From Anaerolineales bacterium (GTDB taxonomy: Bacteria > Chloroflexota > Anaerolineae > 4572-78 > J111): 9,807 nucleotides of DNA. A program made the position numbers and the translations under genes. The notes under the pieces are model-generated. The model was not told the origin of the DNA. It searched no databases and saw only the letters and a program-made list of their open reading frames with translations. Shown here one piece after another: positions 1 through 9,807 of the stretch (position 1 is its first letter; every line of letters starts with the position of its first letter). The stretch is taken from assembly GCA_012032575.1 (NCBI GenBank), contig JAAUSP010000262.1, positions 1 to 9,807 on the forward strand, read 5' to 3'.

Positions 1-701
1 CAACCCACGCTGCACCCGGCGCAGGTACTTTTGATCCGCTGCACATGCGTTTCCTGGCCTCGATAGGCGCTCCCCCGGTCAATGATGGCTCCGGTGGGAC
101 AAACTTGCAGGCAGGTACCACAGGAGACGCAGGTGCTTTCGCCCATGGGCACATCCAGGTCGGCCACCAGAATGCTGGCCGCACCGCGCTCCTGCACCCC
201 CAGGGTAAAGTTGCCCACCAACTCCCCACAGGCGCGGATACAACGCCGGCACAGAATGCAGCGATTGTGGTCCAGCACAAAGTAGTTATGCGAGGCGTCA
301 ACCGCGTAGGGCTGCCAGTTGGGTTGCAGCGGCCAGTGAGTCATGCACTCGCCGTAAGCGGCGTTCTGTAATTCGCAGTCGCCGCCGCTCATCTGGCAGT
401 ACATACAGAAATGGTTGCGCTCGCTAAAGAGGAGGGTTAACACAAATTCGCGGGCCTCGCGGGTTTTGGGGGTATCGGTCCGCACCACCATGCCCTGGCT
501 CACCGGCAAGGTGCAGGAGGGCTGCAAGGTGCGTACCCCCTCCACCTCGACCACACACAGCCGGCAGCCGCCATAGGGTAATAAGTGGGGATGGTCACAC
601 AGGGTCGGAATATTGATCCCGGCCTGCTCGGCGGCCCGCAGCACGGTGATTCCGGCGGGAACTTCTATGGCTTGATCGTTGATAGTTAGTTTGATGGTCA
701 T
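1..701 (-). CDS. Iron-sulfur/molybdopterin oxidoreductase alpha subunit, formate dehydrogenase/NuoG type (N-terminal part, cut by window edge)
   Basis: Catalytic subunit of an NAD(H)-linked enzyme; 233 residues are visible and the C-terminus lies outside the window. Residues 1-75 are a plant-type [2Fe-2S] ferredoxin domain (C35, C46, C49, C63). A NuoG/HydA-type His-ligated [4Fe-4S] site follows (H97, C99, C102, C109, with six residues between the last two Cys). Two [4Fe-4S] ferredoxin motifs come next (C148/151/154/158 and C191/194/197/201). The visible part ends in STCAGCSVG plus a partial TG codon, i.e. C227-x2-C230-x3-C, which matches the [4Fe-4S] entry of Mo/W-bis-PGD oxidoreductases rather than the H-cluster domain of [FeFe] hydrogenase. 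The ATG at 701 has an AGGAG six bases upstream and follows the membrane-protein gene by 45 bases. Formate dehydrogenase is inferred from the formate-type channel upstream; a NuoG-like or other Mo/W enzyme remains possible. A stand-alone HoxU is unlikely because the chain continues. Confidence 0.8.
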   Translation of the reverse strand, partial: MTIKLTINDQAIEVPAGITVLRAAEQAGINIPTLCDHPHLLPYGGCRLCVVEVEGVRTLQPSCTLPVSQGMVVRTDTPKTREAREFVLTLLFSERNHFCMYCQMSGGDCELQNAAYGECMTHWPLQPNWQPYAVDASHNYFVLDHNRCILCRRCIRACGELVGNFTLGVQERGAASILVADLDVPMGESTCVSCGTCLQVCPTGAIIDRGSAYRGQETHVQRIKSTCAGCSVG

Positions 702-746
702 AAGCTACTCCTGATCTCTGCCCTGACAGCAAAGCCAGATAAACTT

Positions 747-1409
747 TCAGGCCGACAAAAATGAGGCAAGTTCCTTTTCACGCATATCCCGATACCCGAT
801 GAGCACCGGCGTAATCAGTCCGGTCAGCAAGAGCACCGCATCCGCCCAGACGCCAAATTGAAACACAGCCGAGAAACCGATTACCGACCAAATTACCGGG
901 ATGATGAGCAAATATTTGGGGATGCGCCGGTCGGTCCAGAGTAACAGGCCGAAGGTAAAGATGGTCGTCGGGCAGGGCAGGCCAAAAGTGGGCAGCGCTG
1001 GATAACCATGCTCTGACAGAACACACACCAGGGGGTAAATCACCAGCGCATACAGGATGAAAAGGCTGCCAACGATGGCATATTCATTGGAGTGAAATCT
1101 AAACCATAGCTTCTGATGCAGGACACCTGCCCAGACAAACAACAGGGCTTGCAAGATAAACAGCGCACCAAAGGCATAGGCGGCCCCATTGATCGAGGCG
1201 AAATAGCGCCAATGATAGACCAGCCCTATCCACAGCCACAGGCCGGCCAAAATAGCACTGATTATCTTGTTGGAATAACGGGTTTCTTTGACTGACAGAA
1301 TCAGCGCGGTCATCCCTAACAGATAAAATAGAACCTGCATGGGCCAGACAGCCCCGTTGTAGGCGGCAAAAACCGCAAAGAATTCTTCTGTCGTAAACGG
1401 CACCTTCAT
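747..1409 (-). CDS. DUF6064-like multi-pass membrane protein
   Basis: A 220-residue hydrophobic protein with about seven predicted membrane spans (near residues 20-39, 47-65, 77-96, 110-131, 147-158, 164-184, 187-204) and a charged C-terminal tail. The opening residues FTTEEFFAVFAAYN, the motif YHWRYF (65-70) and CPTTIFTFGLLLW (146-158) resemble the DUF6064 family as I remember it; its function is not known to me. The ATG at 1409 begins two bases after the NuoF stop codon, and the oxidoreductase alpha gene follows 45 bases downstream, so it sits inside the operon between two core subunits. There is no clear Shine-Dalgarno, so translation may be coupled to nuoF. Inferred roles are a membrane anchor or a sensor; neither is demonstrated. 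I see no quinone- or heme-binding pattern that would make it a classical FdhC/cytochrome b subunit. Confidence 0.78.
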   Translation of the reverse strand: MKVPFTTEEFFAVFAAYNGAVWPMQVLFYLLGMTALILSVKETRYSNKIISAILAGLWLWIGLVYHWRYFASINGAAYAFGALFILQALLFVWAGVLHQKLWFRFHSNEYAIVGSLFILYALVIYPLVCVLSEHGYPALPTFGLPCPTTIFTFGLLLWTDRRIPKYLLIIPVIWSVIGFSAVFQFGVWADAVLLLTGLITPVLIGYRDMREKELASFLSA

Positions 1410-1411
1410 TT

Positions 1412-2596
1412 CTAATTCACCAGGACAGCGTTAAAATTACAAACTTGCATGCAAATACCACAGCGAATACATTTACTCTGGTCAATCGAGTGCCACTGGC
1501 GGCGTTCGCCGTGAATGGCGTCAACCGGACAGTTGCGGGCGCAAACCATACAACCGGTGCAGGCTTGCTCGATGATTTCGTAGTGGATCAAACCCCGGCA
1601 AACTTTGGCCGGGCAGCGTTTCTCGTAAATATGGGCCTCATACTCATGGCGAAAATGTTTGAGCGTGCTTTCAACCGGATTGGGCGCGCCCTGACCCAGG
1701 CCGCACAAGCTGGTGCTTTTGATCTGCCGGCACAACAGCTCCAGAGTTTCGATATCACCCTCCCGGCCCTTGCCGGCGCAGATGCGCTCCAGGATTTCCA
1801 AAATGCGCCGGGTGCCGACCCGGCAGGGGGTGCATTTGCCGCAGCTTTCGGCCTGGGTAAATTCCATAAAGAAGCGGGCAATATCCACCATGCAGGTCTC
1901 TTCGTCCATCACAATCATGCCGCCCGACCCCATAATAGAACCCGCCGCCGTCAGCGACTCATAATCCACCGGCATATCCAGGTAATCCACCGGCAGACAG
2001 CCACCCATCGGCCCGCCTGTCTGGACGGCCTTAAACGTCTTGTCTTCTTTGATACCCCCGCCCACGTCAAAAATAACTTCGCGCAGGGTGATCCCAAAGG
2101 GGACTTCAATCAGGCCGGTATTTTTTACATCGCCGGCAATGGCAAAGGTTTTGGTGCCCTTGCTCTTCTCGGTGCCCATGCTGGCAAACCACTCCGATCC
2201 GCGCAGGATAATTTGGGGGATGTTGGCATAGGTTTCAACATTGTTAATATTGGTCGGCTTGCCCCACAAGCCCTGGACCGCCGGAAAAGGTGGTCGGGGG
2301 CGCGGCTCACCCCGCCGGCCTTCAATCGAAGCCATCAAGGCCGTTTCCTCGCCGCACACAAACGCGCCCGCGCCCATCCGAACTTCCACGTTAAAGTTAA
2401 AGCCGCTGCCCAGAATATCCTGCCCCAACAAGCCAAAGGTTCGGGCCTGTTCGATGGCGGTATTTAGCATACGCACCGCCAGGGGGTATTCCGCCCGGCA
2501 GTAAACATAACCCTGGCTGGCCCCAATAGCATAGGCGGCAATAATCATCCCCTCCACCACCGAGTGGGGATCGCCTTCCAGCACCCGCCGATTCAT
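1412..2596 (-). CDS. nuoF: NuoF/HydB-like NADH-binding flavoprotein, C-terminal part (separated by frameshift)
   Basis: The larger piece of a diaphorase subunit that passes electrons between NAD(H), FMN and Fe-S clusters. Read from the ATG at 2596 it has 394 codons, but homology continues upstream in this frame to about 2680, so that ATG is internal and not the true start. Seen: the end of the FMN region ([16 protein letters not shown]), an NADH-site stretch [20 protein letters not shown] (75-94), the N3-type [4Fe-4S] ligands C252, C255, C258 and C298, and a C-terminal ferredoxin domain with C346/349/352/356 and C376/379/382/386. That extra two-cluster tail is typical of HydB/HndC/FdhB-type proteins and absent from ordinary complex I NuoF. 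It ends two bases before the membrane-protein gene. The 5' part is the adjacent entry; one inserted base in the 2675-2679 T-run (plus strand) would join them into a protein of about 600 residues. Confidence 0.9.
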
Positions 2597-3192
2597 AAAG
2601 GCACCGGGGTCGCCCTCGTCGGCATTGCAGATGATATATTTGGGTTGACCGGGGCTGTTGCGAGCAAACTGCCATTTTTGCCGGTAGAAAAACCGGCTCC
2701 ACCCCGACCCCGCAAGCCGGAAGCGGTAATCAGTTCGATCACCTGCTCCGGGCTTAGTTCGTTCAACACGTTGCCCAGGGCCTGATAGCCATCCACGGCG
2801 ATATAATCTTCAATGTTCTCCGGGTCAATCTGACCGCAGTTACGCAGCACCACCCGGACTTCTTTGGGTTTGGGGGAACCCAGCTCGTCTTCCGGCTGCT
2901 CGTGGCGCGAAGCCAGCAAATGTTCAACGACACGGCCCTTGAGAAAATGCTCCTCAACCAGATAGGGCACGTCGTCAATACGCATGCCGGCGTAATGCAC
3001 CCCCTCCGGATAAACCATAATTTCCGGCCCATGGTCACAGCCGCCAATCCGTGAGGTTTCCAGGACTTGTACCTCGTCAATCAAACCCTGATAAACCAAC
3101 TCATCTTGCAGGGTATCCAAGAGTTCATGCGCGCCCTTAACCAAGCACTCGGGGTCAACACAAACCAGAACGTGGGATCGGTAGAATTTCAT
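2593..3192 (-). CDS. nuoF: NuoF/HydB-like flavoprotein, N-terminal part (truncated by frameshift)
   Basis: N-terminal portion of the flavoprotein above. Residues 1-90 form a thioredoxin-like [2Fe-2S] domain with C11, C16 and C52 (context [15 protein letters not shown]). Residues 110-171 begin the NuoF fold, including the FMN glycine loop [11 protein letters not shown] (161-171). After G171 the frame departs from the family: the observed [10 protein letters not shown] reads [10 protein letters not shown] when one A is added to the A5 run, restoring the conserved [11 protein letters not shown] segment. The frameshifted chain stops at 2593, overlapping the internal ATG of the other piece as ATGA. 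The start ATG at 3192 is preferred over one further upstream because it begins the conserved [15 protein letters not shown], has AGAGG upstream, and does not overlap the ferredoxin gene. An intact homologue would be one gene. Confidence 0.88.
2675..2679 (-). other. One-base frameshift site in nuoF (A5 homopolymer, coding strand)
   Basis: The coding strand reads GGC-AAA-AAT-GGC. Adding a single A gives GGC-AAA-AAA-TGG-CAG and restores the conserved NuoF sequence in the frame used by the downstream piece. The sequence is otherwise open on both sides, with no second defect seen. A homopolymer miscount in sequencing or assembly is the simplest cause; a genuine mutation or ribosomal slippage cannot be excluded from sequence alone. 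Confidence 0.85.
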
Positions 3193-3223
3193 TGTGCGCC
3201 TCTTGAAAAAGTCAAATTTCTCT

Positions 3224-3592
3224 TCATGCCGGAATGACAAACTCGGTTATCACCTTGTTGCCTATGACATGCTCCTTCATTATCTGCCGGGCTTTTGCGC
3301 CAGAAACCTTGCCGTAGGTCACTTTAGGGCCTTCACCAATAACCACTTCGACAATCGGCTCCCATTCGCACAAACCGAGGCAGCCGGTCTGTTTGACCAC
3401 CACATCGCCTAAACTTTCAGATTCAATCATTTCAAGGATAACCTTCATGGTTTCTCTGGCTCCGGCTGCAATACCACAGGTTCCCATTCCAACGGTAATC
3501 TGGGCATAGCCGGTGGTTGTTTTGGCTTGACGCTTTTCCAGAGCCGCTTCTCGCAACCGTTTAAGTTCTTCCAATGATTTGACTGCTGGCAT
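3224..3592 (-). CDS. Thioredoxin-like [2Fe-2S] ferredoxin (small NuoE-like electron carrier)
   Basis: A 122-residue protein with a charged helical N-terminus (residues 1-25) and a thioredoxin-like ferredoxin fold. Key segments are ITVGMGTCGIAAGA (C39) and QTGCLGLCEWEPIVEV (C71 and C75, C-x3-C), ending in VTYGKV. Such single-domain ferredoxins are known next to HydA/HydB-type hydrogenase and formate dehydrogenase operons, where they are thought to shuttle electrons to the NuoF-like subunit. Only three cysteines are visible in the motif region, whereas NuoE-type clusters use four, so cluster content is uncertain. The ATG at 3592 is chosen over the upstream in-frame start at 3622 because AGGAGG (3600-3605) lies seven bases ahead of it and it avoids overlapping the HATPase gene, whose stop is 19 bases upstream. 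nuoF follows after 31 bases. Confidence 0.88.
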   Translation of the reverse strand: MPAVKSLEELKRLREAALEKRQAKTTTGYAQITVGMGTCGIAAGARETMKVILEMIESESLGDVVVKQTGCLGLCEWEPIVEVVIGEGPKVTYGKVSGAKARQIMKEHVIGNKVITEFVIPA

Positions 3593-3599
3593 GGTATTA

Positions 3600-3605
3600 C
3601 CTCCT
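3600..3605 (-). promoter_or_regulatory. Strong ribosome binding site deciding the ferredoxin start
   Basis: AGGAGG on the minus strand, seven bases before the ATG at 3592. It is the best Shine-Dalgarno in the cluster and argues against the longer N-terminal extension beginning at 3622. Confidence 0.75.
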
Positions 3606-3611
3606 CTGGTT

Positions 3612-4184
3612 TTACCGACCACTCGCTGGCTGAATGCGGCTGATGCCCTCGCTCAACAACTGCTTGATAAAGCCCAGAATCGTCGGGTCGGTCAGTGAAA
3701 CGCCTTCTAATTCGCGTTTAATCGGTTCGTCGTCAAAAATAAATTCTGCTCCATTGCTCTCTGGCTGGGTTTTGACGCGATAGATAAAGCGCCAATGGAT
3801 TTGCGGCCAGCCGATGAGCAGGGTCAGCATAGTTCCGGCCAGATCGCCCAAAGGCATGCGGTCAATGTGGCTGCGCTGAAATTCAGCGGTCAGGCGTGTC
3901 CCCTGACCGGGCGTAGAACTAATCTGTAAACTACCAGCGCAGCTTTCTGCCGCCGCTTGAAGCAAAGGAATCCCCAGGCCCACCTTGCGCGTCGTCCGGC
4001 TGGTCACAAAAGGGTCGCTGATGCGGGCCAGAAGCTGCTCATCCATGCCTTTGCCATCATCGCTAACGGTAAACTTCAACCAATCCAGGGGCAGGTCCTC
4101 TTCGACGGTGATTTCGATGTGCCTGGCTCCGGCGGCAACGCTGTTTTCCGCAATATCTAGCAAATGGAGCGATAATTCCTTCAA
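3612..4184 (-). CDS. HATPase_c (GHKL) ATP-binding protein of hydrogenase/formate dehydrogenase-type operons
   Basis: A 190-residue protein with a GHKL ATPase fold in residues 1-100: N box DIAENSVAAGA (D10, E13, N14), G1 box DDGKGM (42-47), the lid DPFVTSRTTRKVGLGIPL (58-74) and GQGT (93-96). Residues 100-190 match nothing I recognise. There is no phospho-accepting histidine or transmembrane sensor, so it is not a full histidine kinase; it is closer to anti-sigma/HATPase accessory proteins encoded between NuoE- and NuoF-like subunits in bacterial hydrogenase operons. The start is the TTG at 4184: the conserved opening MKELSLHLLDIAENS begins there and no ATG lies between it and the G1 box. It begins seven bases after the nuoE stop, and the ferredoxin gene follows 19 bases after its own stop. 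An ATP-dependent regulatory or assembly role is inferred only. Confidence 0.85.
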   Translation of the reverse strand: MKELSLHLLDIAENSVAAGARHIEITVEEDLPLDWLKFTVSDDGKGMDEQLLARISDPFVTSRTTRKVGLGIPLLQAAAESCAGSLQISSTPGQGTRLTAEFQRSHIDRMPLGDLAGTMLTLLIGWPQIHWRFIYRVKTQPESNGAEFIFDDEPIKRELEGVSLTDPTILGFIKQLLSEGISRIQPASGR

Positions 4185-4191
4185 CGTAGGT

Positions 4192-4734
4192 TTAACCTAA
4201 CCGGCCATACCGGCCGTCGTGCCCATCCTCCTGGCACTTGCGGATAATTGGTGGCAGTTTGTTGGGGCGAACCCGTCCGTGAATGTCCTCATCCAGCACC
4301 ACCACTGGAGCCTGGCTGCACGCGCCCACACAGCGGCAGACCTCGACAGTAATTAAACCGTCGGCGCTGGTCTCACCCGGCTCCAGCCCTAATACCTGTT
4401 TGGCCTTTTCCAATAAACGCGGGGTACCGCCAACGTAACAGGCCGTCCCCAGACAGAATTTTAAGGTATGTTTGCCTCTGGGTTGGGTAGTAAAGAACGA
4501 ATAAAACGTCACCAGGCCATTAATCTCGCTCAACGGGACTCGTAATTTCTGGGATACATAAGCCTGCATCCGCTGCGAGATATGGCCAACACGGCTCTGA
4601 AGTTCATTCAGCACTACCATGGTTGCGCCGGGCACGTGTTTGTTCTCACCGAGAATTTGATCAATGACACCCCGTTGTTCAGGGATGTCGAGGGGGTCAT
4701 TTAAGAGAGGGGGTTTTACAAGTATGTCAACCAT
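4192..4734 (-). CDS. nuoE: NuoE-like [2Fe-2S] subunit (24 kDa type) of NAD(H)-dependent oxidoreductase
   Basis: A 180-residue thioredoxin-like [2Fe-2S] subunit that pairs with the NuoF-like flavoprotein. The helical N-terminal region (residues 15-80) contains VPLSEINGLVTFYSFF, a hallmark of NuoE/HydC/HoxE proteins. Cluster ligands are C94-x4-C99 (FCLGTACYVGG) and C135-x3-C139 (CVGACSQAP); all four are present. Length is normal for the family. ATG 4734 is preferred to GTG 4740 because TGGAG (4740-4744) ends five bases before it. It is the first gene after the palindrome-rich promoter region and is followed seven bases later by the HATPase gene, so nuoE probably opens the structural operon. The C-terminus (HDGRYGRLG) lacks the Fe-S or transmembrane additions found in some fusions. 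Confidence 0.92.
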   Translation of the reverse strand: MVDILVKPPLLNDPLDIPEQRGVIDQILGENKHVPGATMVVLNELQSRVGHISQRMQAYVSQKLRVPLSEINGLVTFYSFFTTQPRGKHTLKFCLGTACYVGGTPRLLEKAKQVLGLEPGETSADGLITVEVCRCVGACSQAPVVVLDEDIHGRVRPNKLPPIIRKCQEDGHDGRYGRLG

Positions 4735-4790
4735 TGACACTCCAGTAAATTATTTCAGTGTAAAGGCAGATAAATAACTAAAAGCTCTAT

Positions 4791-4806
4791 TGTGAATTTT
4801 ATCACA
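4791..4806. promoter_or_regulatory. CRP/FNR-type operator, TGTGA-N6-TCACA
   Basis: TGTGAATTTTATCACA is a perfect five-base inverted repeat with a six-base spacer, identical in layout to the E. coli CRP half-site consensus. It lies 57-72 bases upstream of the nuoE start codon in the only extended AT-rich gap of the cluster. Binding by a CRP/FNR-superfamily regulator is an inference; the local regulator is not in this window. Confidence 0.5.
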
Positions 4807-4825
4807 GTAAGGGTAGAAATGTCAC
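4796..4825 (-). promoter_or_regulatory. Candidate promoter for the nuoE operon
   Basis: On the minus strand a -35-like GTGACA (4825 to 4820) is followed by an 18-base spacer and TAAAAT (4801 to 4796), preceded by TG one base away as in extended -10 elements. Transcription would begin near 4788, giving a leader of about 55 bases before nuoE. Both palindromes overlap these elements, so bound regulators would be expected to block or remodel polymerase binding. This is a consensus match only. Confidence 0.35.
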
Positions 4826-4834
4826 GTGACATTT
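4817..4834. repeat. 18-bp perfect palindrome upstream of nuoE
   Basis: AAATGTCACGTGACATTT equals its own reverse complement with no spacer. It covers the candidate -35 element and lies ten bases from the TGTGA-N6-TCACA site. It carries a GTGAC core related to the CRP-like half-site, so it could be a second operator for the same or a related dimeric regulator. A terminator is unlikely since no T-tract follows on either strand. Confidence 0.6.
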
Positions 4835-4862
4835 GTCATTCAAAGTCAAGAGGATTGTCAAT

Positions 4863-5627
4863 TCACCTGGGAGCAATTATTAAGGACCTGCCCTGCTTGT
4901 TACCCAGGGCCAAGAGAAGTTCGTTAATTGTCGGAGCGGCCAAGCGGCAATGATTGAAACCCAAAAACTCATCCAGACGGTGAACATCGCCATTTTGCAC
5001 CAGAGAGAACTGCTTGAGTTGAGGAAACTTTTCACGGGCCTGGGCCGGAGTCAGGTGGCGGGATATTTCCAGAGCGGCAAAGGGCACATCCGGCGGCACA
5101 AAACCCAGGTTAGCCAGCAAGCTGAAAGCAGTTCGATTGACATGAGCCGGAATGGTAATACCGCCTAGCTTCAACACCCCGCTCACGGCTGCTTCGAGCG
5201 AGAGATTGGCCGACGTTAGGAGGAGCCGGGTTTCCCGCCGGATAAACTCTCCGGTTTGGTCCACTACAAATTGCTCGCCAAAGTATTCGATATTATTTTC
5301 CAACCGAGGCAGATGGGCCTCTACTACTTCCTGCCAGCGAACTAACTGGTCCAGAGTATCGAACAGACAGAGCAGGTGAACTTCTTCTCTGGTTTGTAGC
5401 TCCATCCCCGCTAAAACGCTCAAGCCTGTTCCCTGCGCCGCCTGCTGCACTGCGCCCACATTGGCACTGGCGTTGTGATCGGTGATGGCAATCAGATTAA
5501 TTCCTCTACCCAGCGCTTCCTGCACGATCAAGGGTGGGATCATCTCAACTTCGGCGCAAGGTGATACGACTGTATGAACATGCAAATCAGCAATATATGT
5601 TTTTAGCTGTTCCGCTTCTGCGTTCAC
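4863..5627 (-). CDS. PHP-domain metal-dependent phosphoesterase-like protein
   Basis: A 254-residue PHP-fold protein with the expected metal ligands in order: DLHVHT (D14, H16, H18), ITDHN (D50, H51), GMELQTREEVHLL (E76, H84), IPAHVNR (H162) and NGDVHRL (D214, H216). This is a complete PHP active-site set, so it is probably an active phosphoesterase or nucleotidase; the substrate is unknown. Stand-alone PHP proteins of this size are common companions of HATPase and DRTGG genes in clostridial-type hydrogenase clusters. The GTG at 5627 is used as start because the conserved YIADLHVHT begins just after it and a purine-rich GGCGGA lies upstream. It is flanked by a 63-base gap from the CBS fusion and a 128-base regulatory gap before nuoE, so it may end an upstream transcription unit. 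No polymerase domain is attached, so it is not part of PolC/DnaE. Confidence 0.86.
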   Translation of the reverse strand: MNAEAEQLKTYIADLHVHTVVSPCAEVEMIPPLIVQEALGRGINLIAITDHNASANVGAVQQAAQGTGLSVLAGMELQTREEVHLLCLFDTLDQLVRWQEVVEAHLPRLENNIEYFGEQFVVDQTGEFIRRETRLLLTSANLSLEAAVSGVLKLGGITIPAHVNRTAFSLLANLGFVPPDVPFAALEISRHLTPAQAREKFPQLKQFSLVQNGDVHRLDEFLGFNHCRLAAPTINELLLALGNKQGRSLIIAPR

Positions 5628-5690
5628 AAATTTCCGCCAGCAGTAAACCGTAGAAACCTGTGTTTGTTTCCCCTGTCTACTGGCTACCGT

Positions 5691-7073
5691 TTATTGTCTA
5701 ACCCCCAACTCCCATAAGCAACCAGCAATAAAAAAAGTGGGCCTGTCGCTGGCAAGAAGAATTACGCCTTCTTCATTCGCTTTGGCAATGGTTTCTGGTT
5801 CGGGCATCGCCCCTTCGGTAATGATCACCGCACTTAGGTCAAGCAGCGCAGCCACAGCCACAATATTGAGATGCGCCTGCAAGGTAATCCAGATTGACTG
5901 GCGCTGTGCGCCGGCCATGACACAACTCAATAAGTCGGCGGCATAGCCACCACTGGGTCTTACCTGGTTAAAATCCTGGCTCCGAGTCAGGACGGTCAGA
6001 TTTAATTGGTCAATAATTTCTTGCAGGGTCATGTTATAATTTCTCCAGCGGGTGGTGGTCATCGGCGGGGAAATGGCCTTTTCGCTAAAGGTTTCTTCAG
6101 GCTGTAGATAAATTTTCATGTACAGGCGTGTCCCCTGGCCCGGCGTCGACTCCAGCGCCAACTCATTCACACAGCGCTGCATATTTTTCAGGCCCATGCC
6201 CGCCCCAAAGCCCATCTCCCGAATTTCCGGTGGAGCAGTTGAAAAGCCCGGCTTCATCGCCAGTTCGATATCCATGATACCCGGTCCGTCGTCAACGGTT
6301 TCCATTAGAATTTGATGAGGTTCAATTTCAACCCGTACTTCGCCACCGTGCAGGGTGTGGATAACTAAATTCATTTCAGCTTCATAAATGGCAATACCAC
6401 AGCGTCGGGCAATTTGGGGGTTGGCTCCCAAACGGAGCAAGGCTCGTTTGATATGACTGGAGGCCGTACCGCCGTGAGTAAAATCTTTGGGTTTGATCTT
6501 ATAGCGCAAAATCAGACTGGTTCGATCGGAGATAATATCCTCAAAGAGGTGGCTGGCGCGATACCGGCGCAGCTCCTCGGCCTGATAGTCATACTTTAGG
6601 GCATTCAGCAAACCACGAGTGATGTCGCCTTTAGTGATGATGCCGACCAGTTTTCCAGCCTCATTAACCACAGCCAGACGACCAAACCTGGTTTGGGCAA
6701 AAAGTTTCAAGGCTTCTACAATAGGGTCGAAAGAGTTGACGGTAATTACGTGTGTACTCATGTAGCGGGCGACTGCTACTTCTAACTCGCCCCGGCCCAT
6801 ATCGCGCAGGGCGCGGATGAGGTCTTCCAGGCTGATGATTCCAACCAGTTTCCCATCCTCCACCACCGGCGCACCCGAAATCCGGGCTTCGCGAAACAGG
6901 TTCAATACGTCCTGGACCTTCATCGTCGGCGTCGCCATTTTAATGTCGCGGGTCATGACTTCCTCAATTTTTAACTCATAGGCCAATTCCTCAACTCGGG
7001 TAATAACGCCGGCCGCCGCATCTGTTATAATCCGCTCTTGCCGGACAATATCTTGGGTAATGTTTTCTTCCAT
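5691..7073 (-). CDS. CBS-CBS-HATPase-DRTGG regulatory fusion protein
   Basis: A 460-residue soluble protein. Two CBS domains (about 36-92, with ISGAPVVEDGKLVGIISLEDL; and 104-156, with GRLAVVNEAGKLVGIITKGD) form a likely adenine-nucleotide-sensing pair. An RsbW/anti-sigma-type HATPase follows (about 195-320: N box with E231 and N235, DDGPGI 261-266, GFGAGMGL 288-295, GQGT 312-315). A DRTGG domain occupies 348-460 (GGYAADLLSCVMAGA, then IWITLQAHLNIVAVA). The linker at about 325-347 (EKAISPPMTTTRWRNYN) is low in conserved features, and an internal ATG at 6032, with GGAG ten bases before it, begins a typical stand-alone DRTGG protein of 113 residues. This could therefore be a genuine fusion or two genes merged by a lost stop or frameshift. 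The start ATG at 7073 has a weak ribosome site. A role in sensing energy charge and controlling the neighbouring redox enzyme is inferred. Confidence 0.85.
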   Translation of the reverse strand: MEENITQDIVRQERIITDAAAGVITRVEELAYELKIEEVMTRDIKMATPTMKVQDVLNLFREARISGAPVVEDGKLVGIISLEDLIRALRDMGRGELEVAVARYMSTHVITVNSFDPIVEALKLFAQTRFGRLAVVNEAGKLVGIITKGDITRGLLNALKYDYQAEELRRYRASHLFEDIISDRTSLILRYKIKPKDFTHGGTASSHIKRALLRLGANPQIARRCGIAIYEAEMNLVIHTLHGGEVRVEIEPHQILMETVDDGPGIMDIELAMKPGFSTAPPEIREMGFGAGMGLKNMQRCVNELALESTPGQGTRLYMKIYLQPEETFSEKAISPPMTTTRWRNYNMTLQEIIDQLNLTVLTRSQDFNQVRPSGGYAADLLSCVMAGAQRQSIWITLQAHLNIVAVAALLDLSAVIITEGAMPEPETIAKANEEGVILLASDRPTFFIAGCLWELGVRQ

Positions 7074-7157
7074 AGAATCAACCCAGTTGCAGTGGAACCT
7101 GTTGAGTCAAAGTTGATTACTGCTCATCTGCTCGTACAACACCAGGCGACCAAATGA

Positions 7158-7547
7158 TCAGTCCAACCCTGGATCATCGTGCCGAGATGCTGCTTTCAGA
7201 CCAGCGGCATATAAATGACCGCACGTTTCAAACATTGTAAACTGGGTACCAATGATGGGGATACCCACTTGCCGGGCCACGTCAATTGTTTCTGGCATAG
7301 GTCTTTTGCCGCGCACCATCAGGATAGCCGTAACATCAGCCATCTCGGCGGTCCGCACAATTTGCGGGTTAACCAGGCCGGTAATAAGCAAACCCTGCGC
7401 TACGTTGTAGCGGAGCACATCGCTCATTAAATCTGCCCCAAAGCCGCTGCATACCTGACGTTTTAGAGCAGTTTTACTGCACAAATCGGTGGGAAAGGGC
7501 CAAAAAAGTTCAGCCTGGGTCAGGGTCAAAACCTCATCGAGACGCAT
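7158..7547 (-). CDS. DRTGG-domain protein
   Basis: A 129-residue single-domain DRTGG protein: MRLDEVLTLTQAEL opening, CSGFGADLMSDVL (33-45), LLITGLVNPQIVRTAEMADV (53-72), LMVRGKRP (76-83) and GIPIIGTQFTMFETCGHLYAAGL (95-117). DRTGG domains are related to regulatory modules of phosphotransacetylase-type proteins and also occur as short proteins beside hydrogenase genes; their ligand is not established to my knowledge. It differs clearly from the DRTGG domain fused in the next gene, so the cluster encodes two paralogous copies. The ATG at 7547 lies six bases after the transporter stop; its GAGG ribosome site overlaps that stop codon (TGAGGATGT), suggesting coupled translation. The C-terminal tail (SRHDDPGLD) is unstructured in appearance. 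Confidence 0.87.
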   Translation of the reverse strand: MRLDEVLTLTQAELFWPFPTDLCSKTALKRQVCSGFGADLMSDVLRYNVAQGLLITGLVNPQIVRTAEMADVTAILMVRGKRPMPETIDVARQVGIPIIGTQFTMFETCGHLYAAGLKAASRHDDPGLD

Positions 7548-7553
7548 ACATCC

Positions 7554-8438
7554 TCAATTTTGTCGTTTGCGAATATAGACAAACCAGTACACCAGCCCCA
7601 CCATGACTGCCCCACCAATGATGTTGCCAATAGTAACCGGAAGCAAATTGGCTATAAAAAAGTTACTCCAGGTGAGATTGGGATAATCGGCAGCGGTCTT
7701 GCCAATAGTTTCCCAAAAATGGGCGGGAGCGCCGGCTTTGACCAACAGACCAATCGGGATAAAGTACATGTTGGCGACGCTATGTTCAAAACCGGCAGCC
7801 ACAAAAGCAGTAATTGGAAAAATGATGGACAGGATTTTATCGGTGGTAGAGCGGGCGCTGTAGCATAACCAAACCGCCAGACAAACCAGCGCATTACACA
7901 TAATGCCCAGGGCTATCGCCTGCATAAAATCCAGGCTGACCTTGCTGTTAGCAATATTTAGAATATTCAACCCGATAGATCCGCTACCAAAACCGTACTG
8001 TCCGCTGTAAAATATGAGCCAGGCTGTGGCAATGGAGCCGACAAAATTACCCACGTAAACGATGGCCCAATTCCGCCACAGCAGCGCACTGGAAACTCGT
8101 CCATCGGCCCAGGCCATAACAATTAAGTTGTTGCCGGTAAAAAGCTCCGCCCCGGCTACTACCACCAGAATCAGGCCCAGGCAAAAAGTTAATCCGTTCA
8201 ACAAGCGGATGATGCCAAAGGGCAACATATCGGCTGCCCCGGCAGTAACGGTGGTGGCAAAGATGGCCCCCAAGGCAATAAACGCCCCCGCCAGCACCGC
8301 CAAAAGGCACAACAGCAACACTTCGGGAAGCGGATAGATCACCTTGCCGGCTTGGCGCGGGTCCGGCAAATCCTTGAAATAATCCAGGAAAACAACCGTT
8401 TCGTCGAACGCCGTCAGCTCCGACCTCGCCTGCTCCAT
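7554..8438 (-). CDS. Formate/nitrite transporter (FNT) family channel with transposase-like N-terminus (chimeric ORF)
   Basis: From residue 53 on, this is an FNT-family pentameric channel: [22 protein letters not shown] (92-104), [13 protein letters not shown] (178-190), [15 protein letters not shown] (216-230, with the channel histidine H219) and [13 protein letters not shown] (265-277), with about six membrane helices. In this operon it would plausibly move formate for the downstream enzyme; nitrite or other small anions are alternatives. Residues 1-52 are not [23 protein letters not shown] followed by [16 protein letters not shown] is the conserved N-terminus of ISAs1-type transposases (DDE_Tnp_1-associated domain). 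The switch falls at the shared LAGA segment, around 8283-8295. The ATG at 8438 with GGGAGGA (8444-8450) therefore belongs to the IS gene, and the true FNT start is missing. The stop is six bases before the DRTGG start. Confidence 0.85.
8283..8438 (-). mobile_element. ISAs1-family transposase N-terminal remnant (first 52 codons)
   Basis: Codons 1-52 of the chimeric frame, starting at ATG 8438, encode the DDE_Tnp_1-associated N-terminal domain: [20 protein letters not shown] and [10 protein letters not shown]. Family members continue for several hundred residues toward the catalytic DDE domain, but here the sequence changes to an FNT channel after A52. Codons are GC-rich, like the rpsU side and unlike the FNT body. 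No terminal inverted repeat was identified with confidence; the IS end, if present, would lie within 8439-8580. Confidence 0.75.
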
Positions 8439-8659
8439 CGCCGTCCTCCCAAATCCGAATCAGAGGACCACGACAGATTCAGCACGCAATCAATTTGTCA
8501 CCAACTCCTTCACCCGATCGCCCTGGCTGGGACTCCCCCTGTGATGGACTTTGCGACTGGTTTCTGCTAAATCGGCCCAAACTGAAAGGACGCGCGCGAT
8601 CGCTTGCGGCGACCGCAAGCGGGCGTCGCGTCGCTATTCAATGCTTGAAAGGAACACGC
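8439..8659. other. Non-coding stretch between transposase remnant and rpsU
   Basis: This 221-base gap carries the transposase ribosome site (8444-8450, minus strand), presumably the outer end of the IS, and then the rpsU leader. An open frame runs through it into rpsU, but its translation before residue 55 resembles no protein I know and I read it as non-coding. Apart from the hairpin at 8601-8621, no clear promoter or terminal repeat was recognised. Confidence 0.5.
8601..8621 (+). repeat. 9-bp hairpin in the rpsU 5' leader
   Basis: CGCTTGCGG and CCGCAAGCG are exact inverted repeats separated by CGA, making a strong stem-loop that ends 38 bases before the TTG start of rpsU. It could be an attenuator, an RNA-stability element or the terminator stem of a lost upstream gene; no T-tract follows, which argues against intrinsic termination. 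Confidence 0.5.
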
Positions 8660-8947
8660 TTGCAGGTACTCGTTCGCGACAACAATGTCGATCAGGCTCT
8701 CAAGGCGCTGAAGAAGAAGATGCAGCGCGAGGGCATTTTCCGAGAGATGAAGCTTCGCGGCCACTACGAGAAGCCGTCTGAACGAAAAGCCAGAGAGAAG
8801 GCTGAAGCGATCAGGCGCGCGCGCAAACTCGCGCGCAAGCGGGCGCAGCGCGAAGGGCTCATCCCCGGCAAGCCGAAGCCCGCCCCGCGCGTCGGAGGCC
8901 CCGGTACGGGCCGGCCGGGTGGAGCGCCCCAGCGCGTTGCGCGCTGA
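8660..8947 (+). CDS. rpsU: 30S ribosomal protein S21
   Basis: A 95-residue basic protein of the small ribosomal subunit, needed for efficient initiation near the anti-Shine-Dalgarno region. The family core is intact: [39 protein letters not shown], then the Arg/Lys-rich helix with [15 protein letters not shown]. The Pro/Gly-rich tail ([20 protein letters not shown]) is longer than in E. coli S21 and is typical of Rhizobiales such as Bradyrhizobium or Rhodopseudomonas as I recall them. The start is TTG at 8660, with AAGGA (8649-8653) six bases upstream; the frame stays open further 5' but that part is not S21-like. GC-rich codons and alphaproteobacterial ancestry contrast sharply with the minus-strand cluster, supporting a contig junction to the left. 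Confidence 0.95.
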
Positions 8948-8971
8948 TCATCTAACGCGACCGACCTTTGT

Positions 8972-8996
8972 GCGGCGGGCCTTTTTTGACCGCCGC
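8972..8996 (+). terminator. Possible rpsU terminator hairpin
   Basis: GCGGCGG (8972-8978) and CCGCCGC (8990-8996) form a perfect seven-base stem 25 bases after the rpsU stop. The T6 run lies in the loop rather than after the stem, so this is not a classical intrinsic terminator. Termination just after GGGCC-T6 using a weaker upstream stem is an alternative. Confidence 0.35.
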
Positions 8997-9039
8997 CGGG
9001 TTTGTTGCGAGCCGCAAGTTCGCCGCCTTTATTCCTTGT

Positions 9040-9060
9040 ATTGATTGGCCAAGAATCAAT
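9040..9060. repeat. Inverted repeat ATTGATT-N7-AATCAAT
   Basis: Seven-base exact arms flank GGCCAAG in the gap between rpsU and the TPR lipoprotein gene, 47 bases before its ATG. The half-sites resemble FNR/FixK TTGAT/ATCAA but the spacing is too wide (N9 instead of N4), so an oxygen-regulator site is doubtful. It could be an operator or part of the promoter region. Confidence 0.35.
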
Positions 9061-9107
9061 TCGGGTTCGGCGCGTCCAAACCCGCGGCTACCGGCAATGA
9101 GGAGAGC

Positions 9108-9807
9108 ATGACCAAGCGGCTCGCGCGCCCCGGCCTGACGCGCCTCAGCGGCATCGCTGCGCTGATTGGCTTGGCGCTGGGCGGCTGCTCTTCGATCATG
9201 AACCTGCCGGGAAGCGTCGTCGACGATAGCGCGTCGGCCGCCTCGCCAGCCAACCTTGCTTCGCTTACCGACGTGCTGAGCAAGAACCCGAACGATCCAC
9301 AGGCCTACAATATGCGCGGCTCGGTGCTCGGTCAGTCCGGCCGCTATCAGGAAGCGATCACCGATTTTGACAAGGCGATCGCACTCGACGCCACTTATGC
9401 GCAGGCTTACGCCAATCGCGCTCTTGCCAACCGGCAACTCGGCCAAGTCGATCTTGCCCTCGCCGACTATGACCGCGCCCTCGACATCGACGCAGCCTAC
9501 GCGGTCGCCTATGTCGGCCGCGGCATGGTGCGCCGTGACAAAGGCCAGCTCCTCGAGGCGCTGCAGGACTTCAACAAGGCGATCCAGATCCGGCCCGACA
9601 ACGCGCAGGCCTACTACAATCGCGGCCTGCTCTATCAGAGCCAGAAGCAGCACCAGTACGCGATCGACGACCTAACGACCGCGATCGGCCTGTCGCAGCA
9701 GCAGGCCGAGCCGTTCGTGGCGCGGGCCTTTGAGCCATCTCGCGGTCGGCGACGTCAAGGCGGCGGCCGACGATCTCGACGACCGGCGGTCGAAGATCGA
9801 GCCCGAG
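9108..9807 (+). CDS. TPR-repeat lipoprotein (partial, frameshifted near its visible end)
   Basis: An exported lipoprotein: basic N-terminus, hydrophobic stretch LSGIAALIGLALGG and a lipobox LGGC with C27 as the acylation site. About four TPR repeats follow (near 62-95, 97-129, 131-163, 165-198), with recurring signatures such as AYANRALANRQLGQ and AYYNRGLLYQSQ, so it probably scaffolds protein interactions in the periplasm. It resembles NlpI-like TPR lipoproteins common in Rhizobiales, but the exact family is not identified. The ATG at 9108 has GAGGAG (9099-9104) upstream at a short spacing. After about residue 206 the frame turns into an Arg-rich, non-TPR sequence; shifting one base near 9725-9732 gives SHLAVGDVKAAADDLD, the expected continuation. 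The gene runs off the window. It lies 160 bases downstream of rpsU. Confidence 0.85.
   Translation, partial: MTKRLARPGLTRLSGIAALIGLALGGCSSIMNLPGSVVDDSASAASPANLASLTDVLSKNPNDPQAYNMRGSVLGQSGRYQEAITDFDKAIALDATYAQAYANRALANRQLGQVDLALADYDRALDIDAAYAVAYVGRGMVRRDKGQLLEALQDFNKAIQIRPDNAQAYYNRGLLYQSQKQHQYAIDDLTTAIGLSQQQAEPFVARAFEPSRGRRRQGGGRRSRRPAVEDRAR
9723..9732 (+). other. Frameshift site in the TPR lipoprotein gene
   Basis: Around CGGGCCTTTGAG the reading frame leaves the TPR pattern; the alternative frame from 9733 reads SHLAVGDVKAAADDLDD. A one-base indel explains it. The following RRSKIEPE looks further disturbed, consistent with low-quality sequence near a contig end. Confidence 0.65.

Follow-up and report, generated by a model that had tools for sequence, protein, structure and literature searches.

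Chimeric contigs in metagenome assemblies are known to join DNA of different taxa where these share a short identical stretch, at repeats and close to contig ends, and amplification chimeras as well as assembler errors often exploit short identical stretches. Gene fusions driven by an insertion sequence (IS) form when the element inserts with one end close to a gene. In the formate channel FocA of E. coli, PflB is bound by the N-terminal helix (PMC5572259).

The window, that is, the whole analysed stretch of 9,807 nt, contains an open reading frame of 294 amino acids on the minus strand (8438-7554), open throughout according to the ORF listing of the window, which begins like a transposase and continues like a FocA-type channel. 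From the sequence comparisons described below we conclude that the contig is very probably a chimera of Anaerolineales and alphaproteobacterial DNA and that the transposase–formate channel fusion is, with the same high confidence, an artefact rather than a new protein. The relevant features are the following.

1597..8302, minus strand: Anaerolineales block with genes for NuoF-like, 2Fe-2S, ATPase, NuoE-like, PHP, CBS-ATPase and DRTGG proteins and focA, collinear with L001
7554..8282, minus strand: 3' part (residues 53-294) of a FocA-type formate/nitrite transporter (FNT) gene, Chloroflexota type (PF01226, TIGR04060)
8283..8302, minus strand: block of 20 bases common to both parent genes, encoding LAVLAGA and containing the join
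8303..8438, minus strand: 5' part of an ISAs1-family transposase gene from the start codon to the common block (PF13808; 94% identity)
8439..8525, minus strand: left end of the ISAs1 element, with its terminal inverted repeat (tip at 8525) and a non-coding leader, from the alignment with L081 and L082
8526..8944, plus strand: alphaproteobacterial DNA with rpsU, the gene of 30S ribosomal protein S21 (PF01165, TIGR00030), which starts near 8661
9045..9807, plus strand: TPR lipoprotein gene, Xanthobacteraceae-like, running off the end (86% to P0243)

Pfam assigned residues 18-52 of the ORF to PF13808 (DDE_Tnp_1_assoc, E 4e-08), covering just profile positions 1-35 of 88, and residues 43-286 to PF01226 (E 8.3e-76, 255 bits against a cut-off of 34.6). 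The FocA family TIGR04060 was narrowly reached with 294.4 bits against a cut-off of 290.1, and the transmembrane FNT domain thus exceeds the curated cut-offs of both families. The TIGR04060 match begins at profile position 23 of 268; positions 1-22 have no counterpart in the ORF, so that the native N-terminus before helix 1 is missing. Protein search and alignment gave 94% identity between residues 1-52 and the best full-length ISAs1-type transposases (381 aa), and up to 91% identity between residues 53 onward and Chloroflexota-type FocA (P0121/P0122) among the matches listed. Aligned with close proteins, the ORF follows first the ISAs1-type transposase pattern and then the Chloroflexota-type FocA pattern. 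An earlier note on this DNA had read codons 1-52 as transposase-like and codons 53-294 as FNT-like with a switch at 8270-8300; the domain assignments and identities bear out this division, and the range given for the switch is essentially correct.

To the left of the switch the window is of Chloroflexota type. Its closest relative L001, which belongs to a 1.23-Mb contig of an Anaerolineales MAG, is collinear in blastn with the segments 1597-3605, 3665-4759, 4779-7028 and 7174-8302 (L001 14952-7981, same order). As the best relative it reaches 67-79% DNA identity over these segments (78.7% over 7174-8302), and no exact left parent was found. The Chloroflexota MAG loci L011 and L008 match the window from 1425 and 1500, respectively, and further left matches to L063, L008 and L019 were obtained at 51-431, 472-688 and 477-667. 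Positions 689-1424, which carry a DUF6064 gene, had no DNA match among the 80 FNT loci.

Some further differences to L001 were seen in this part. The collinearity stops within the NuoF-like gene: in L001 an ORF of about 1040 residues runs into Fer4_20 and Pyr_redox_2 (L001:13308-16430), whereas at 689-1597 of the window a ferredoxin-type C-terminus is found instead, and then the DUF6064 gene. The single ORF at 5691-7073 of the window corresponds to two separate, overlapping ORFs in L001 (CBS-ATPase and a second one), with alignment gaps between 6044 and 6075. Six of the closest 80 FNT genes lie on MAG contigs with other labels (L016, L026, L046, L050, L051 and L056, labelled Fibrobacteria, Proteobacteria, Acidimicrobiia, Gemmatimonadales, Thermoleophilia and Actinomycetes), for which mis-binning or transfer is possible.

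To the right of the switch the relatives change. The first 243 bases resemble ISAs1 copies on plasmids of Alphaproteobacteria; DNA matches to the IS stretch came from 12 records, eight of them with a query coverage of 80% or more, and the best relative has 73% identity over the whole of 8283-8527, so that no exact IS parent was found either. Named relatives of the IS part are Rhodoplanes and Rhodopila. The rpsU region shows about 70-78% DNA identity to Rhizobium, Shinella, Methylocystis and others among the matches listed, the named relatives of the TPR protein are Variibacter and Xanthobacteraceae, and the order rpsU–TPR is also found in Sinorhizobium (L101). The GC content is 53% in 1-8282 versus 64% in 8526-9807, and GC3 is 0.57 in the FNT part versus 0.83 in the TPR gene. 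Among 297 genomes of the phylum of G001, in which close alphaproteobacterial genomes were sought, 14 gave short and weak matches, none of them useful. Judged by these relatives, the DNA at 8283-9807 probably stems from an alphaproteobacterium of the Hyphomicrobiales, and the alphaproteobacterial genes that the earlier note had placed beyond the switch are indeed there.

For the position of the join we compared the best 80 of 468 FNT relatives. In all 80 loci the FNT homology ends at or before 8314, namely at 8302-8314 in 48, at 8291-8300 in 19 and earlier in 13 of them. The ISAs1 homology starts at 8283 in both complete copies, L081 and L082, though the whole window served as query; L083 duplicates the record of L081, and with the fourth IS locus, L100, the match is confined to 8359-8414. 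Consequently, positions 8283-8302 are covered by both homologies, and the crossover may lie anywhere within these 20 bases. Each side is thus homologous to a different taxon and both homologies end at one short common stretch, beyond which the homologues diverge; this agrees with the earlier judgement that an artefact is likelier than a functional fusion.

The block of the window is identical to the FNT loci in 14-19 of 20 bases in the 43 loci measured; the other 37 of the 80 were left out of this comparison, as their alignment began past the third base. Both genes encode LAVLAGA here, in the same reading frame, which accounts for the near-identity. Any join inside the block keeps the frame common to both genes, and for this reason the ORF stays open. 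Given this overlap, an open frame is what one would expect, and it is no sign of selection. The frame is preserved across the switch, as had been claimed, but the same-frame LAVLAGA overlap explains it. The hydrophobic segment thought to be shared by both families at the switch is likewise present; the shared DNA stretch, which had been put at about ten bases, measures about 20.

The fit of the two genes at the block was assessed with proxies standing in for the true parents, namely the IS copies L081 and L082 against ten hand-picked top FNT loci (20 pairs; L007, L008, L011 and L012 were skipped). The junction register gave 14-19 identical bases of 20 and was best or tied-best in 10 of the 20 proxy pairs; in the other 10 another register beat it by 1-3 bases. 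With L001, the closest FNT proxy, and L081 the junction register reached 19 of 20, a value attained by 2 of 2,095,674 registers on both strands, the junction included.

A stretch of this kind could equally be used for microhomology recombination in a cell. We therefore considered DNA uptake between the phyla, in either direction, followed by illegitimate recombination at the 20-base block, which would have left a decayed or altered channel gene with an open reading frame. Such an event requires, however, that an intact foreign housekeeping block (rpsU and the TPR gene, arranged as in Sinorhizobium) came to lie across the phylum border; furthermore, the 80 FNT loci fetched lack such upstream DNA, and no second fusion occurs among the matches listed (120 of 1932 and 120 of 8000). 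We consider a real rearrangement highly unlikely. That recombination between the phyla at this coding microhomology produced a transposase-headed formate channel expressed from the IS end would be a more remote prospect still.

The structure of the insertion sequence was compared with its complete relatives. L081 and L082 comprise 1254 and 1255 bases, carry inverted repeats at both ends with 1 and 2 mismatches in 17 positions, and are flanked by 10-base target duplications. In the window the IS is cut after 243 bases and only one flank is kept. A single terminal repeat is located at 8509-8525 with its tip facing rpsU; a second one is absent from the window, the best other match (4 mismatches in 17) lying inside the FNT gene at 7908. 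The Pfam search of the ORF gave no DDE domain PF01609 and the rest of PF13808 is missing, whereas the transposase P0010 has both. The PF13808-then-DDE arrangement and the two repeats about 1.25 kb apart that make up an ISAs1 transposon are thus not found here. Transposition connects the tips of an IS to target DNA, not codon 52 of the transposase to the target. Since 243 bases of IS separate the switch from the tip, and the other end is missing, transposition is not the cause of the join. Insertion of the IS into focA was ruled out, the junction being within the transposase gene and the tip pointing toward rpsU. A PF13808 search in the genome behind L001 was negative (0 of 1), while the control search was positive in 3 of 14 known genomes. 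In viral contigs 166 pattern matches to the 52-residue IS part were obtained, among them one relative (residues 1-32, 59%).

The FNT gene has lost its beginning at the join. Of the 80 FNT loci, 79 keep an open frame over the 36 codons upstream of the join position, and 74 have in this segment a loose motif (G, then V/I/M, then K/R within two residues); for this count the register was extrapolated where the alignment began inside the gene, and 30 of the 80 segments were printed. In the ORF this native segment is replaced by transposase sequence. The [NiFe] hydrogenase genes that lie upstream in L001 are missing from the window as well. In L001 (1799-8723) focA is preceded by genes for NuoE-, NuoF- and HoxU-like proteins and for a small and a large subunit, which together resemble a bidirectional [NiFe] hydrogenase, and after which an ORF without Pfam match follows; channel and hydrogenase may be linked in this Anaerolineales relative.

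The earlier note had also regarded an IS-driven functional fusion as conceivable, in which the N-terminus of the transposase would supply expression signals, start and half a helix to a working channel. The frame is continuous, the FNT part still lies above the TIGR04060 cut-off (294.4 versus 290.1 bits), and the hydrophobic IS segment would stand in for the first half of FNT helix 1, which we take to lie at this position of the ORF. Nevertheless, the join falls well inside the transposase gene, at a distance of 243 bases from the IS tip, and this tip is directed toward rpsU and thus toward housekeeping genes from the other organism. Moreover, the ORF lacks the native N-terminus of FocA; in E. 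coli FocA it is the N-terminal helix that interacts with PflB (PMC5572259). A second instance is absent among the matches listed. This proposal finds no support in the arrangement, and we regard its probability as close to negligible.

Searches for the same architecture were made with residues 1-58 and with the whole protein. Only the contig's own protein carried both domains among the 120 matches listed of 1932 and the 120 listed of 8000, respectively; accordingly, FNT homologues with the same N-terminus, for which a check had been proposed, were not encountered among the 120 of 8000 apart from the contig's own. Our literature search retrieved no report of a transposase–formate transporter fusion protein or chimeric gene. 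Among the matches listed, other proteins join the ISAs1 N-terminal domain to different Pfam families, namely P0005, P0078, P0081 and P0117, with PF00872, PF13358, PF00903 and PF01042, respectively. These second accessions indicate that odd joins of this fragment are not unique to the contig. The contig's own protein is present in the protein database as entry P0001 and is shown there as a two-domain protein encoded on a contig of 9807 bases.

As to how the proposed chimera would have formed, Anaerolineales DNA (up to about 8302) would have been joined to alphaproteobacterial DNA (8283-9807) carrying an ISAs1 copy beside rpsU, guided by the 20-base near-identity that encodes LAVLAGA in the hydrophobic segment of both genes. 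The joining may have taken place in silico, or in library preparation or amplification; we infer that it happened outside a cell, either as an assembler overlap or by template switching. The join is situated about 1.5 kb from the contig end (9807). Two frame changes were observed in the contig, one in the NuoF-like gene between 2638 and 2716 at a T run (compared with L001) and one in the TPR gene near 9730 (compared with P0243 and P0249). With one in each half, they suggest sequencing errors in both halves, although they could be natural; they fit error-prone or thin data and are no proof thereof.

The locus illustrates neatly that a fusion gene with an open, continuous frame and good domain scores can result from a false contig join. 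Where the misleading overlap is coding sequence that both parents read in one frame, preservation of the frame is no evidence of biology. Flagging P0001 guards against a spurious domain architecture.

Compared with the FocA proteins of Anaerolineae and Chloroflexota (P0121, P0122, P0124 and L001), the ORF is alike from residue 53 on, with at most 91% identity. The native proteins P0121, P0122 and P0124, in contrast, have an N-terminus of their own, about 60 residues ahead of the join position, and the N-terminal segment of the type PPEMAxKAE..GVKKA of Chloroflexota FocA is absent from the fusion ORF. In addition, focA of L001 sits after [NiFe] hydrogenase genes, whereas the fusion ORF does not. 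With the ISAs1 transposases of Alphaproteobacteria (P0008 and P0010; plasmid copies L081 and L082) the window shares residues 1-52, the leader and one repeat, but it lacks the rest of PF13808, PF01609 and the other IS end. The window also resembles chimeric metagenome contigs, with which it has in common the two taxa, the short identical stretch, the repeat element and the proximity to a contig end. It differs from them in that both genes use the stretch as coding sequence in the same frame, with the result that a gene caller reports a fusion.
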